Source: Mesorhizobium australicum
GTDB lineage: Bacteria; Pseudomonadota; Alphaproteobacteria; Rhizobiales; Rhizobiaceae
Direction: 5' to 3'
NCBI RefSeq assembly: GCF_900177325.1
Contig: NZ_FXBL01000004.1
Coordinates: 4,841,501-4,905,500, forward strand
Length of the DNA stretch: 64,000 nt
Shown: one piece after another, positions 47,900 to 53,826 of the stretch
Numbering within the stretch: position 1 is the stretch's first letter
Layout: each line of letters opens with the position of its first letter
Made by a program: the position numbers and the translations under genes
The notes under the pieces: generated by a model
What the model saw: only the letters and a program-made list of their open reading frames with translations
Told to the model about the DNA's origin: nothing
Databases searched by the model: none

Positions 47900-48370
47900 A
47901 TGGCCGATCATGGTGAATCGGGCGCGCCCGACGCAATCCCCCTCGCGGGCGTGCTGACGGCCACGGGCCACCGCCACGTGGTGCGGGTCTACTACGCCGA
48001 CACGGATTTCTCCGGCGTGGTCTACCATGCGCGCTATCTCGAATTCTTCGAGCGCGGCCGCTCCGACTTCCTGCGGCTGGCGGGCGTGCACCACACCGAG
48101 CTCGCCGACGGCAAGCACGGCGAGAAGCTGGTCTGGGTGGTGCGCCGCATGGAGATCGACTTCAAGGGCTCGGCCAAGATCGACGACGTGCTGACGATCG
48201 ACACGATCACCGAAAACGTCTCCGGCGCGCGCATCTTCATGGCGCAGAAACTGTCGCGCGACGGCCAGGTGCTGGTCGAAGCCAAGATCGAGGCGGCGAT
48301 CGTCTCCGAAAACGGCCGGCCGCGGCGGTTTCCGAAGGAATGGGTCGAGGCGTTCATGCCTCAGGGCTGA
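47900..48370 (+). CDS. ybgC: Tol-Pal-associated acyl-CoA thioesterase YbgC
   Basis: YbgC is a hotdog-fold thioesterase that hydrolyses acyl-CoA and is encoded with tol-pal in most proteobacteria. The 156-residue protein has RVYYADTDFSGVVYHARYLEFF (catalytic Asp), ERGRSDFLRLAGV and FKGSAKIDDVLTIDT. ATG 47900 follows a GGAAAGGAAAG purine tract. It normally leads into tolQ within a few bases; here 4.7 kb separate the two. Confidence 0.95.
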   Translation: MADHGESGAPDAIPLAGVLTATGHRHVVRVYYADTDFSGVVYHARYLEFFERGRSDFLRLAGVHHTELADGKHGEKLVWVVRRMEIDFKGSAKIDDVLTIDTITENVSGARIFMAQKLSRDGQVLVEAKIEAAIVSENGRPRRFPKEWVEAFMPQG

Positions 48371-48706: not shown

Positions 48707-49111
48707 TCAGGACGTGTCGGGGGGTTCGACCGGCACGGCGGCGGCGATTGCAAGTCTTTCGATGAACGCGCCCAGGCCATGGATCGCCCCGCCCTCGTTG
48801 CCGGCCTCGTCGGAGGCCTGCCCACGGTGCAGGAACGACAGGCGGCACAGGTATGCCGCGATGGCCTGCATGTAGAGCCCGAATGCCCTGAGCGAATCTG
48901 CAAGGTCCTCCGCATCGAAGGGATTGCTGCCGAAGCCTGCCGGCATCATGACCGGCGTCCAGGGTCTGCGTGCGAAGCTGCGGAGCGTGCCAGCGACGTA
49001 GGCGCTCAGCAGCGCATTCGCCTGCCAGGCGGCCCACAGCACGCACCAGCGGACCCAGAACGAGCGGCCGGCGGCCTGTTCGGCCATGTCGGCGATCGAG
49101 AACAGGCGCAT
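48707..49111 (-). CDS. Hypothetical protein in the ybgC-tolQ island
   Basis: A 134-residue protein starting MRLFSIADMAEQAAGRSFWV, helical, with one long semi-hydrophobic stretch (WCVLWAAWQANALLSAYVAG) and a second (FGLYMQAIAAYLCRLSFLH). I do not recognise the family. ATG 49111 is chosen from its position; 18 further codons are open upstream. It is convergent with ybgC. It may be a real small membrane-associated protein, or spurious; the codon use looks protein-like. Confidence 0.55.
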   Translation of the reverse strand: MRLFSIADMAEQAAGRSFWVRWCVLWAAWQANALLSAYVAGTLRSFARRPWTPVMMPAGFGSNPFDAEDLADSLRAFGLYMQAIAAYLCRLSFLHRGQASDEAGNEGGAIHGLGAFIERLAIAAAVPVEPPDTS

Positions 49112-49557
49112 GACGATCCTCGCCTTGTGCGCCTGTTGCCTCCCCGCCTTTGCCCTCCAGCCCATCTCCGGCTCCCGTTTGACCGGATGTAGTTTCGGGC
49201 ATGCTGGCAGGGTGGGGATGGAAAAATTTCGGGCGCTAACGGGAACAAGGGGTTAGCGGGAAACGGGCGGAAATCGATGCACGGTGCCGCTTGCGGGGGA
49301 GGTAGACGCTGGACGAGGGGATGGGTGGGAACCGCCTGACCGCTGGTGGACTGGAGAGCTGCGATAGGGGTCGTTTCACGTGGGTGCCGCCTCCGACGGG
49401 AAGGCGGCCCCACATCGGCTGTCCTCGGCTTCCCAGCGCGACCCCAGTTCCTACCATTTATCGATATGGTTGATCACACCTGACCATCCACAGCCTTTAT
49501 GCACATTGCAGACTGGCCGTTACGTTGTTCAACATTATCTTTCCGAAACTCCATTTT
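49112..49557. other. Noncoding stretch between island genes
   Basis: No gene is supported. A hairpin with CGCTAAC / GTTAGCG arms lies near 49233-49257, and a GGAAGGCGGCCCC-type GC stretch near 49410. The DNA becomes AT-richer from about 49450 as it approaches the ATPase gene end, which fits a composition change at the island. Confidence 0.6.
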
Positions 49558-51192
49558 CTAGGCTAGCGCAGCTACAAGTCCGCCAAAGTGTCCGATCAGG
49601 GTTGCCCTGATTGACTCGTTATCACTAGCCAATTTACGAACAGCGGCTTCGTACTGGCCCCGGCTCTTGAACTGAAGAGCGTTCACAACGGCGGCTAGCG
49701 CCATCGTCTCGCGAATTGGATAGCGCCCCACGATCTTCTCAACATCTTTCGCGGCAATCCAGGACTGTAATTGTGCTTTTTCGGCTTGGTACATCGCCTG
49801 TGCGTCGACAGTGATATTGACGTTCTGGCCGCGTTGGATTGTCTTCCAGTCAGGCATTTGCATGCTAATCTTATCTTTGACAGCCTGCTCCGTCATCCGC
49901 GCGGCTAGCCGGTCAACCTCGGAGGCAATCGCAGCAACGAGATTCGCGCTGGCGGTTTGCATCACGTGCGCTGGGTCCTCCCCGACCACGTCACATTGCC
50001 GCTGGGCGACGGCGGCGATGATCGTGGGGCTGTAGTAGAGGGACTCGACTGAGTATACGGAGAGTGGGTAAATCCCCTTTGCGATAAGAGAAGAGCGCTG
50101 AGCCGGCGAAATCTGATCTTGATCGACTATACCGAATGCCTGCACCCAAGTGACCGCCTCAGCGTCGCGCACGCTGACAACGGCGTGCTCAACATCTCGG
50201 CAGCTCTGACGCGGGAAGATAGATACGCCGGGGAACAGCAATTCATAGAGCGGTTTGTCGAGGCTGGTAGAAGTGCCTTCGATGAAGAGCATCTTTCGAC
50301 GCGAACCGATGATAGCCTCCTTGGTGGCATCATCGACCTCAATGCCTGGTTCAAGCACATCTAGGTCCCATGCAGTGACATCATTGCCTTCCGCCTTGGA
50401 ATCGCGAACCAAAACGGTTTTCGCGGTCGGCATGCCAACTGGCAAACTGAGTTCATGGGTAGAAACAACGAAAGTGCAGTCTGGACGCTTACCGAAAAGC
50501 TGCAAAAGCAGTGGCGTCACGATCGAAGCGTGGAGGTGGCGCTCCGGTTCATCGACAAGTATTAGAGCACCCTTTTTTGCGGTCAGAATCGTTCCCGCAA
50601 TCAGCAATGCGGCTCGCTCGCCATCTGACAGCAGCGCTATGCTGTAAGGCGTTCCTCCATTTTTGCTAGCAATGATAGTGCTGTTCTCTCCAATTTCCAG
50701 TTTGATAGAAATGCCCGACCCTGCAAATAACTCAGTGATTTCGGCAAGTGGCTGGGGTTCCGCTGCGAGCTTGACAGCCTCCACCTCGTTGCCTGATCGG
50801 TATGCGTCTGCGAGTTGGCGTGAGAGCTTATTGTCCGACTCAATTAGGTCGGCAATCACCAACCCTGATCGAACACCGGAATTCCACTCTTTCCAACGTG
50901 CATCGGGCTGACTATCTTGACCCCTAGTGTGTTGTTCATTTCTAATCTTGTCCTGTGGTGAGAATGGAACCGCATTGCTTTCCATCCACGTTTGACGGTG
51001 AGCGGAAATACGAACGGCATCGGCGTGATTGAGGCGGAATAGCGTAGATATAAGGCCGGATTTGCCAGCACCATTTGGCCCGACCACGAACAACGGAGCA
51101 GACGAAGATACGGGCAGTTGTAAAGCCGACCCATCAATCAGGCGCACCGTCGTGTTGAAGGTGGAGGGTACAATCGTTGAAGTTTTTGTCAC
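49558..51192 (-). CDS. Fused ABC-type ATPase / TOPRIM (DUF4435) protein, PARIS-like
   Basis: A 544-residue single-chain protein. Residues 30-250 are an ABC-type ATPase: Walker A GPNGAGKS (38-45), signature LSDGE (188-192), Walker B ILVDEPERHLH (211-221) and switch His246 in VVSTHELSLP. Residues 298-545 look like a TOPRIM/DUF4435 nuclease domain: MLFIEGTSTSLDKPLYELLF with Glu305, GIVDQDQ with Asp357 and Asp359, and SVESLYYS. This is the AriA plus AriB pairing of the PARIS anti-phage system on one polypeptide. It is AT-richer than its neighbours and sits in the ybgC-tolQ island. Domain calls are firm; the defence role is inferred. Confidence 0.8.
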   Translation of the reverse strand: MTKTSTIVPSTFNTTVRLIDGSALQLPVSSSAPLFVVGPNGAGKSGLISTLFRLNHADAVRISAHRQTWMESNAVPFSPQDKIRNEQHTRGQDSQPDARWKEWNSGVRSGLVIADLIESDNKLSRQLADAYRSGNEVEAVKLAAEPQPLAEITELFAGSGISIKLEIGENSTIIASKNGGTPYSIALLSDGERAALLIAGTILTAKKGALILVDEPERHLHASIVTPLLLQLFGKRPDCTFVVSTHELSLPVGMPTAKTVLVRDSKAEGNDVTAWDLDVLEPGIEVDDATKEAIIGSRRKMLFIEGTSTSLDKPLYELLFPGVSIFPRQSCRDVEHAVVSVRDAEAVTWVQAFGIVDQDQISPAQRSSLIAKGIYPLSVYSVESLYYSPTIIAAVAQRQCDVVGEDPAHVMQTASANLVAAIASEVDRLAARMTEQAVKDKISMQMPDWKTIQRGQNVNITVDAQAMYQAEKAQLQSWIAAKDVEKIVGRYPIRETMALAAVVNALQFKSRGQYEAAVRKLASDNESIRATLIGHFGGLVAALA

Positions 51193-52036
51193 GTCCTTAT
51201 CTCTTGCAGGAACGAACTGTTGTACGGATTTCTAGCAAATTTGCTCAAGCTTGGAATAGGCTTCCAAACTGCGGATTTGCACTGCCGGGCTAGCGCTCAA
51301 GCGCGATACGTCCGGAGGCTAGATTCACCATGCTCGTCGCGATCCCGAAAACGGACTGACTGCTAACGGCCACGTTCAAGCCGAAATTCAGACGTCTTTC
51401 GAATGCCAAGCCTAGATTGGCGGCGGCAGTCCGAACGACCGCGATGGGTCGTTTTCTGTCTGAGACTTTCATGTAGTAACGGACCTGCTTCAGGCGGACT
51501 GTCCACTGCTTCGCCGGTGCCGGCCCTTGGCTCTGCGGTTGCCGCATTCCTCCGCCAATGGGTCGCGCCCGCCTGCCCTGTCGTTCATTATGGCCGGGCG
51601 TTCGACCACTATGAAAGGTCCACCTGACCTTTCATGTCGCGTTTGGGGAGACGCCGCGCCCTGAAACGACGGGGCAGGTGGAATGAGGCCCGCCCCCCCG
51701 GCACGCCCAGCCCATGGTCTCGTGCCGGGCACGCGCCCCCTCCACCACGCTTCGCGTGGTCCTTGGGGGGCGAGCCACTTGTCTAGCCCGTCCTACGGCC
51801 CCCCCGCTTCGCAGGGGAGGATATGCCGGCCGCGCGGTCGCGCCTGATCCTCCCCCGTTCACGGGGGAGGGGGACCATGCGCAGCATGGTGGAGGGGGCG
51901 CGGGTATGGAGAGGGGACCGCCGCAGGCGGTGGTGGGACGGAGGACAAGTGGGCCCGTCTGTGCGACCTCGCCCGGCAGCCGAAAACAGAATCTTAACGC
52001 CCGGCAGACATTAGTAGCGACACACGTATACGTTGA
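51193..52036. other. Noncoding region upstream of the ATPase gene
   Basis: About 840 bases with no confident gene. It contains the ATPase gene promoter region (AT-rich, 51193-51300), a weak 85-codon frame at 51290-51547 that I do not accept, and a dispersed inverted repeat (51734-51900). Base composition moves from AT-rich to GC-rich near 51500. Confidence 0.6.
51734..51900. repeat. Inverted-repeat element (CGCCCCCTCCACCA type)
   Basis: CGCCCCCTCCACCA (51734-51747) and its perfect complement (51887-51900) bracket about 140 bases containing two hairpins, CCACG-CTTCG-CGTGG and CTCCCCCG-TTCA-CGGGGGAG. This resembles the dispersed rhizobial palindromic elements seen elsewhere in the window, here beside the ATPase gene. 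Confidence 0.7.
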
Positions 52037-52561
52037 ATGGAGTGTCATGTGCTCTCGATCAACACAGTTTCCAGCACACGCACCGCTCTCGTATTGCTTG
52101 CCGGGCGAGCAGAAACGCGTCACGTATTCGCGTCGAAGACAGCCGCCGGAGTCGGCCCGAGTCCGGGTGGAAACGTAACGCCGCTCGTCGGCGACGCACT
52201 CCTGCAGATCGCCGACCTGACCGCTCGACTGGGCGCAGACAGCGCGTCTGTCCGCCCCCAAGCTCAACTTGAGGGGGTGAATTTCGAGGACAAGGTGATG
52301 AGTTGGCTGTCACGAATCTACGAAGACGATGAAGGTTTCCAGCAAGCAGTCGCCAACGGCACGCTGAATGTTCAGCGCGCCGTGGACGTCGAGGCACTCG
52401 GGTTCCGTTCCTACATCGTCGACGTGCAAAAGAACGGCAATCACCTGGGATCGGCAGGAGCCGTCACGGTCAACAAGCAGTATCTGAGCGACCTCAGAGC
52501 ATCCGGCGGAAATCACATCGTCGGGACAGCGGAAGGACAAGATTACTACGTCACATGGTGA
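52037..52561 (+). CDS. Hypothetical protein in the ybgC-tolQ island
   Basis: A 174-residue ORF with no recognised domain. The C-terminal half (GFQQAVANGTLNVQRAVDVE, SYIVDVQKNGNHLGSAGAVT) reads like real protein; the N-terminal 60 residues are low-complexity and less convincing. The start is uncertain; ATG 52037 is the first in frame. It resembles an orphan C-terminal domain rather than a complete enzyme. Confidence 0.42.
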   Translation: MECHVLSINTVSSTRTALVLLAGRAETRHVFASKTAAGVGPSPGGNVTPLVGDALLQIADLTARLGADSASVRPQAQLEGVNFEDKVMSWLSRIYEDDEGFQQAVANGTLNVQRAVDVEALGFRSYIVDVQKNGNHLGSAGAVTVNKQYLSDLRASGGNHIVGTAEGQDYYVTW

Positions 52562-52689
52562 CGGACGCATTTCTGGACATGAGCCCGCCTTCTCAAGGGG
52601 GAATGAAGCTCCCAATGGGTGGGCCCGATGCTCCGCTACCTCGGATGTCCATTCTTTTCCAGTGCAGCGACGGTCCAAGGTGGTCGTCT

Positions 52690-52844
52690 TTCCGGGGCTG
52701 CGCAGCGGAACCCGGAAGCCAGAGGGCAGACGCCGCCGCGTGAAACGCCGCGCATCCGGCCTTCTCCAGCTTCGTCACGAGCGACAGCGTGCGACTTGCC
52801 GAGGTGGCGACCTGGATTCCGGGTTCCGCTGCGCGGCCCCGGAA
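52690..52844. repeat. Inverted-repeat element upstream of tolQ (TTCCGGGTTCCGCTGCGC type)
   Basis: Arms at 52690-52717 and 52816-52843 are inverted repeats with one mismatch in 28 bases, separated by about 100 bases. This is a common Mesorhizobium genome repeat of the GATTCCGGGTTCCGCTGCGC kind. The 52562-53112 stretch has no gene; the tolQ promoter probably lies downstream of this element. Confidence 0.75.
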
Positions 52845-53112
52845 TGACGCAGGGGATGTGCCTCGCTCATCCGCGCGACGCCCCATCCTAACCTCTCCTT
52901 AACCATAACGGTCCATTAAGAACCAAAGGGAAATCGGAGCGAATTCGCTGCGCCTTCCTTTGACCAAAATTGCTCACGAAAAGGCGCCATCTGGCGCATT
53001 CGGGGCATTTCCGGCGGTCGGGGGCGGAAACCCTGCGGTCGGGACAGGACGATTTGGGACGGTGCGCGTGGGCTAGCCGCTGCAAGGCCCGTCTTTCTGG
53101 GACAGTCACTTC

Positions 53113-53826
53113 ATGGAAACTTTGCCTCTCGCAACCTCTGGCGGCGAACTCTCGATCTGGGAACTCTTCTGGCAGGCCGGCTGGGTCGTCAAACTGGTGA
53201 TGATCGGCCTGATCGCCGCCTCGGTGTGGACCTGGGCGATCATCATCGACAAGATCATCGCCTACGGCCGCATGCGCTCGGCGCTGAACCGCTTCGAACA
53301 GGTGTTCTGGTCGGGCCAGTCGCTGGAAGAACTCTACCGCACCCTGTCGGAGCGCAAGACGACGGGCATGAGCGCGATCTTCGTCGCCGCCATGCGCGAG
53401 TGGAAGAAGAGCTTCGAGAAGGGCGCGCGCACGCCGATGGGCCTGCAGATGCGCATCGACAAGGCGATGGATCTGGCGCTGTCGCGCGAGATGGAGCGGC
53501 TGGAGAGCCGCCTCGGCTTCCTCGCCTCGGTCGGCTCGGCGGGCCCGTTCATCGGCCTGTTCGGCACCGTCGTCGGCATCATGACCTCGTTCCAGGCGAT
53601 CGCCGGCTCGAAGTCGACCTCGCTCGCGGTCGTGGCACCCGGCATCGCCGAGGCGCTGCTGGCCACCGCCATCGGCCTGCTCGCCGCCATTCCCGCCGTC
53701 ATCGCCTACAACAAGCTGACGGCCGACGCCGGCAAGATCGGCGCGCGCATGGAAGGGTTCGCGGACGAGTTCTCCGCCATACTCTCGCGACAGATCGATG
53801 AGAAGGTCGGCCAGAAGGCGGCCTGA
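53113..53826 (+). CDS. tolQ: Tol-Pal system channel protein TolQ
   Basis: TolQ with TolR forms the proton-driven motor of the Tol-Pal complex, needed for outer-membrane constriction at division. The 237-residue protein has three membrane segments: [20 protein letters not shown], then [25 protein letters not shown] and [21 protein letters not shown], with the conserved channel threonines. It begins the tolQ-tolR-tolA-tolB-pal run. ATG 53113. Confidence 0.97.

Follow-up and report, generated by a model that had tools for sequence, protein, structure and literature searches.

A predicted single-chain PARIS (AriAB) protein in a variable ybgC-tolQ interval of Mesorhizobium australicum

In a stretch of 64,000 nucleotides of the Mesorhizobium australicum genome (contig NZ_FXBL01000004.1, positions 4,841,501 to 4,905,500; hereafter the window), an AT-richer gene lies alone between ybgC and tolQ, which raises the questions of what kind of system it encodes and how variable the interval that holds it is. 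The gene occupies positions 49558..51192 on the minus strand and encodes 544 residues from a GTG start, whose position is the same in relatives of 84% and 77% identity, both also of 544 residues. An earlier note made from the sequence alone had read this open reading frame (ORF; 51192..49558) as a single-chain ABC-ATPase/TOPRIM protein resembling a fused phage anti-restriction-induced system (PARIS, AriAB), and both the ORF and this reading hold up. The window protein is very probably a single-gene PARIS system, for which defence by tRNA cleavage is predicted. Its N-terminal part (residues 1-284; 50341..51192, minus strand) is an OLD-type ABC ATPase corresponding to the AriA-like sensor half, and its C-terminal part (residues 285-544; 49558..50340, minus strand) is a DUF4435 TOPRIM nuclease domain corresponding to the AriB-like effector half.

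The PADLOC profile for fused AriAB (PDLC02982) matches the window protein at E 1.2e-56 with 190.5 bits and is covered over nearly its whole length, and the separate AriA and AriB profiles match at E 8.5e-17 and 4.1e-6, respectively. The next ATPases, among the best 25 of 68 PADLOC families, are Mads, NsnB, PtuA, HEC-01A, AbiLi, and GajA at 22 to 37 bits. The annotation name PARIS_II_merge, met in one paper passage, presumably refers to this fused profile. In Pfam, the protein matches AAA_21 (57.4 bits; cutoff, 27), ABC_tran (31.7 bits; cutoff, 25), and DUF4435 (29.1 bits; cutoff, 27), the last reaching 31.7 bits when the C-terminal domain is searched alone. PHROG 25246 covers residues 34-399 at 7.5e-49, and the best 25 of 55 NCBIfam families include only weak ABC matches far under their cutoffs. 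In the passages of PMC9122126 consulted, ariAB, whether split into two genes or fused into one, was detected in 5.2% of genomes, the thresholds for the two-gene form are 32 bits for AAA_15 and 27 bits each for AAA_21 and DUF4435, and the AAA_15+DUF4435 and AAA_21+DUF4435 fusions were detected with profiles made by the authors themselves. The window protein passes both the AAA_21 and the DUF4435 thresholds, as the search proposed in the earlier note was meant to establish; for the fusion, the PADLOC AriAB profile was used in place of the PARIS authors' own.

The motifs of both halves are intact and lie where the earlier note had placed them. On the minus strand, the ATPase half carries the Walker A motif GPNGAGKS (residues 38-45; 51058..51081), the ABC signature LSDGE (residues 188-192; 50617..50631), the Walker B motif ILVDEP (residues 211-216; 50545..50562), and an H-loop, and the nuclease half in the same chain carries the TOPRIM catalytic glutamate Glu305 (50278..50280), the DxD motif Asp357-x-Asp359 (50116..50124), and Glu383 (50044..50046), an acidic residue conserved in the DUF4435 domain. 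In an alignment of 110 sequences, comprising 85 of the 120 relatives listed (without fragments) and 25 loci and including the window protein itself, the invariant residues are G38, N40, G41, G43, K44, S45, L188, S189, G191, E192, D214, E215, and H246 in the ATPase and E305, D312, D357, D359, and E383 in the TOPRIM half. The same five TOPRIM-half residues are again invariant in 79 C-terminal domains, taken from the window and from 78 of the 80 named-genome loci (of the other two, L024 was excluded by hand and L045 by the coverage filter); DUF4435 was detected in all 79 and the PADLOC AriB profile in 78. A wider alignment, whose 25 rows go as low as 22% identity, retains E305, D357, D359, E383, D214, E215, and H246 in every row, with substitutions of S45 by T in nine rows, of L188 by M in eight, and of E192 by Q in one (L163); one further row (L166) alone has E in place of both D190 and D312. 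The spacing from Walker A to the signature varies from 133 to 153 residues across these rows. According to passages of PMC12409363, E26 is the residue mutated in Escherichia coli AriB, and E305 probably corresponds to it.

Structure comparison was needed for the effector half because a sequence search of the PDB with the C-terminal profile gave only chance matches. A predicted structure (single chain only; predicted template-modeling score, 0.59) places the second half closer to AriB than to any other listed structure, with 8ux9_A and 8v46_D as top matches, in agreement with the comparison suggested in the earlier note. An OLD-type TOPRIM C terminus, the mark of class 1 OLD proteins, is not the best structural match, and assignment of this half to a non-TOPRIM or OLD-like family, which the earlier note had named as a way to be wrong, is contradicted by its DUF4435/AriB-like character. 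The ATPase half alone does not tell AriA and PtuA apart. Model residues 10-268 span AriA residues 3-444, and because these aligned ranges differ by 183 residues, the window protein lacks counterparts of about 180 AriA residues.

The earlier note had considered 544 residues short for a fused AriAB, an expectation that fails against the 120 best relatives, whose median length is 543 residues and of which 90 have 530 to 560. The order-level AriAB proteins in the wider alignment have 527 to 600 residues, with starts set mechanically, and proteins of this fused class are compact as a rule. Relatives are widespread and sporadic. At E ≤ 0.001, 1,557 relatives were found among 7,997 scored candidates, and 146 loci in named genomes were confirmed, of which 80 were kept; these range from Alphaproteobacteria to Bacteroidota, Cyanobacteria, Chloroflexota, and a Clostridium. 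Within the order, the AriAB model reaches E ≤ 1e-30 in 12 of 297 genomes, the source genome included, compared with none of 14 control genomes, with at most four candidates scored per genome among the rows listed. Besides the source genome, only two (G043 and G032) in a sample of 61 have clear relatives of similar length. None of the six other genomes of the genus (G001 to G006; G001 is only 81% complete) carries an AriAB relative, three of them giving only partial matches, which cover residues 134-259 and belong to other ATPases (E 7e-9 to 9e-8); the gene is thus accessory in the genus and not core, the latter being another outcome that the earlier note had set against itself. The source genome has one copy, and its two further matches (E 3.9e-8 and 4.5e-5) are partial, each to the ATPase region of another ORF.

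Plasmids are also among the carriers. At E ≤ 1e-10, 49 plasmid records match, 29 of them over at least 80% of the query, and the 49 include 16 Escherichia and 5 Salmonella records. In the two small E. coli plasmids inspected (L153 and L154), a relative of about 33% identity is the largest annotated gene; the 5.3-kb plasmid otherwise has two hypothetical ORFs, a gene for Rop, and one for replication that is annotated as frameshifted, and the 6.4-kb plasmid, whose gene table is incomplete, lists one hypothetical protein besides genes for a ToxN/AbiQ-family toxin and for replication. Only two phage records match, both from one Oenococcus phage and both partially. A conserved partner gene was sought in 136 of 181 neighboring ORFs (at most four per locus, 140 to 899 residues, within 3.2 kb) at 36 of the 80 loci, picked for their long flanks, and this idea was rejected: the commonest Pfam family, phage integrase, has just 5 members among the 136 (best 25 of 156 families), and the commonest PADLOC family, a type I methyltransferase, has 2 (best 25 of 176 families). 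One Gabija gene, one type I restriction gene, and two Thoeris-TIR matches also occur among these neighbors; no enrichment near defence genes is claimed from them.

The location of the gene was examined in the genus and the family. The left border gene (156 residues; 47900..48370, plus strand; traced by tblastn) and the right border gene (53113..53826, plus strand; matched at E ≤ 1e-60 in 100 of the 101 genomes of the family) are taken to be ybgC and tolQ, the name ybgC being that of the earlier note and not the result of a family search. The gap between them is 4,746 bp in the window versus 197 to 477 bp in 36 of 40 genomes from other genera of the family, which agrees with the claim in the earlier note that the two genes are otherwise adjacent. 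The sample holds one genome from each of 40 genera, drawn from 98 with a tolQ match, chiefly by high similarity of tolQ; in the remaining four genomes, the gap is 1,038 bp in one (L129), 3,806 and 4,192 bp in two, and ybgC was not found in one (L138). Within the genus, the gap is 3,730 to 4,409 bp in G005, G006, and G004 and 308 bp in G001, and the fetched contigs of G002 and G003 end short of ybgC.

The contents of the interval differ in each genus genome examined. Beside tolQ in G002 (L109 2655-5787) stand, in a row, genes for a CD-NTase (PADLOC Cyclase, 8e-118), a 2TM effector (2e-65), an OGG protein (1e-75), and a TGT protein (2e-114), a set which we take to be a type-IV-like cyclic-oligonucleotide-based antiphage signaling system (CBASS). 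G005 has a reverse transcriptase (RT; L107 4874-6178; RT family, 8e-40; DRT UG17, 4e-30) and a 323-residue protein with no Pfam or PADLOC match (L107 7033-8004). The lone 645-residue GHKL ATPase of G006 (L108 5314-7251; HATPase_c_3, 3.7e-15), with weak type II restriction matches (best, 3.6e-8), is a candidate defence protein. G004 has a 592-residue protein whose N-terminal TIR_2 match falls under the cutoff (21.9 versus 28 bits; L110 2862-4640) and a 263-residue protein with no family at cutoff (L110 2006-2797), and G003 has a TauD-family protein that is not defence-like. The cargo of the four genomes measured (G005, G006, G004, and G002) has a G+C content of 48 to 58%, compared with 66 to 69% for the flanks. 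Judged from gene content, the interval is a variable spot at the level of the genus, with a defence assignment that is firm for the window and G002, likely for G005, weak for G006 and G004, and absent for G003. A defence site shared by the whole family was ruled against, as the two other-genus genomes with large gaps do not look like defence; by eye and without a search, we take the proteins of one to be TonB-receptor-like and hemophore-like (L141) and those of the other to be LigD- and Ku-like (L152). Nor were relatives outside the genus found at this place, one of the checks that the earlier note had proposed: none of the 80 named-genome loci, many of them short, has a tolQ or ybgC match. 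A literature search found no paper on ybgC-tolQ as a hotspot of defence systems.

How might such a protein act? In two-gene PARIS, as described in PMC11455837 and in passages of PMC12409363, an AriA hexamer holds three AriB molecules, the triggers Ocr, Ptr1, or Ptr2 bind AriA, and AriB, once released, dimerizes and cleaves tRNA-Lys, the cut falling between positions 40 and 41. The best-supported reading of the window protein is that it follows the same sensor-effector logic in cis, a reading supported by the domain identity, the intact ATPase and nuclease motifs, the AriB-like fold, the sporadic distribution, and the variable, defence-holding interval. Release of AriB is impossible here because sensor and nuclease share one chain. 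By analogy with the two-gene system, the AriA half with ATP would form a dimer or oligomer that keeps the TOPRIM domains apart, so that the AriB half is held inactive by the ATPase assembly. A phage protein, which in known PARIS is an anti-restriction protein such as Ocr, would engage the ATPase half; the complex would then rearrange, and two TOPRIM domains would pair while still tethered and cut a host tRNA (tRNA-Lys in known PARIS), stopping translation and aborting the infection. Tentatively, and as one possibility, the protein may be a compact form of PARIS that senses, silences, and kills entirely in cis, without the roughly 180 AriA residues and without release, the ATP-bound OLD domains opening or re-pairing on the trigger and thereby bringing the two tethered TOPRIM domains together as an active tRNase dimer. 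In that case, release would not be needed, and the step at the heart of every PARIS system would be allosteric activation. Because its effector cannot be released, the single-chain form can tell activation by release from activation without it and offers a natural, clean way to find out how AriB is turned on. A literature search, which did not cover two Nature papers on PARIS structure and does not establish an absence, found no functional test of a fused AriAB.

Other explanations of the gene were weighed against a PARIS system. It might be a one-gene OLD- or Gabija-like nuclease that cuts DNA, its TOPRIM domain being a DNase, not a tRNase, under the control of ATP or nucleotide loss. The GajA profile reaches only 25.7 bits versus the 190.5 of AriAB, and the C-terminal domain is of the DUF4435 family throughout the 79 domains and AriB-like by structure. 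No other ORF longer than 230 residues lies wholly between ybgC and tolQ, and the nine other interval ORFs scanned have no family above cutoff, all of which makes such a DNase unlikely. A relative of PARIS kept mainly for a role unrelated to phages, such as addictive stabilization of the mobile DNA that carries it, would fit the plasmid-borne relatives, several of them on plasmids of only 5.3 to 6.5 kb, and the five integrase and two resolvase genes among the 136 neighboring ORFs. We hold it to be very unlikely, as a toxin and sensor in one chain would not be able to act through the decay of a separate antitoxin and the CBASS-like set and RT occupy this locus in relatives.

There is also little reason to regard the gene as a decayed or silent remnant of a past island. 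Its sole promoter-like site lies inside the gene with none upstream, a point in favor of silence, in a scan for the sigma-70 consensus only that found one site where 1.3 are expected by chance. However, the gene is full length without a stop, all motif residues are intact, and its start is shared with the relatives of 84% and 77% identity, so that decay is extremely improbable.

The gene has a G+C content of 54.1%, compared with 65.8% for the window, as the earlier note had noticed in calling the region AT-richer, and its third-position G+C is 0.576 versus 0.92 for tolQ and 0.891 for ybgC. Homology to the nearest relative, G005, which has other genes here, stops at 49328, returns for 77 bp at 51444-51520, and resumes from 52895, delimiting a window-specific insert of 54.3% G+C at 49329..51443. 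To the right of the insert, a cluster of dispersed GC-rich short repeats (51613..51900) has 73 matches in the source genome, itself included and most of them partial, and recombination between repeats such as these and the dispersed element at the left edge could swap the cargo. Direct or inverted repeats at both insert ends are at chance level only (best E, 1.7), and no integrase family was found among the ORFs scanned from the interval. The second window-specific stretch (51521-52894) contains a 174-residue ORF (52037-52561, plus strand) that was rejected as a partner gene; it has no Pfam or NCBIfam match at curated cutoffs, a single database relative (92%), and no counterpart in the ybgC-tolQ regions of 46 relatives and is regarded as an orphan.

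The left edge of the insert is formed by a dispersed element of 578 bp (48707..49284, minus strand) that contains a 152-residue ORF and is found in six of seven genus genomes. The ORF has 23 matches in the source genome, 14 to 21 in five other members of the genus, and none in G001; it has no Pfam or NCBIfam match at cutoff, and the named relatives among its 40 database proteins are Mesorhizobium or unplaced. Across 78 pairs of 13 full-length copies, differences at the three codon positions number 863, 648, and 2,047, and because they fall mostly on third positions, the pattern of substitution identifies a protein-coding family. A role of the ORF as a general marker of defence islands is not supported, since mean G+C is flat at 65 to 68% over 21 regions (the window and 20 of the 22 other places in the source genome), although five of these (L172, L174, L177, L181, and L183) have 500-bp bins of 44 to 54% G+C within 6 kb, contrary to a full rejection. 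Another copy of the 152-residue gene lies about 500 to 800 bp from an OLD-like ATPase match in the source genome (G000, C4:3806801-3808156, L169), G005, G006, and G004; because the G+C content is normal there in the source genome, this pairing is probably an old, shared arrangement. For the genus, the ybgC-tolQ interval is a place to seek further defence genes.

Compared with known systems, the window protein resembles OLD proteins and Gabija GajA in that a single chain carries an OLD-family ABC ATPase and, after it, a TOPRIM domain, whereas its TOPRIM domain is of the DUF4435/AriB kind and no ORF the size of GajB, the adjacent helicase that accompanies GajA in Gabija, lies beside it. Septu and retron PtuA proteins, which score at most 34.1 bits here, work with an adjacent HNH protein, PtuB; passages of PMC12409363 describe the HNH domain in PtuB of retron-Eco7. 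The effector of the window protein is instead a fused TOPRIM domain, and no HNH match was found in the nine other interval ORFs scanned against Pfam, shorter or overlapping ORFs being only partly scanned. From two-gene E. coli PARIS (AriA and AriB; 8ux9 and 8v45-8v49) it differs in being one chain from which AriB is unable to leave and in lacking a counterpart of about 180 E. coli AriA residues. Its closest likeness is to the PARIS single-gene fusion of AAA_21 and DUF4435, with which it shares the domain order, the near-full profile match, the catalytic acids, the stand-alone gene, and the length (544 residues versus 570 model positions). It differs in scoring 190 bits to the model, where other members of the order reach up to 529, and in being only 22 to 38% identical to the order-level AriAB proteins aligned. 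The window protein therefore belongs to an already known kind of system, the single-gene PARIS fusion, and stands on a divergent branch of it.
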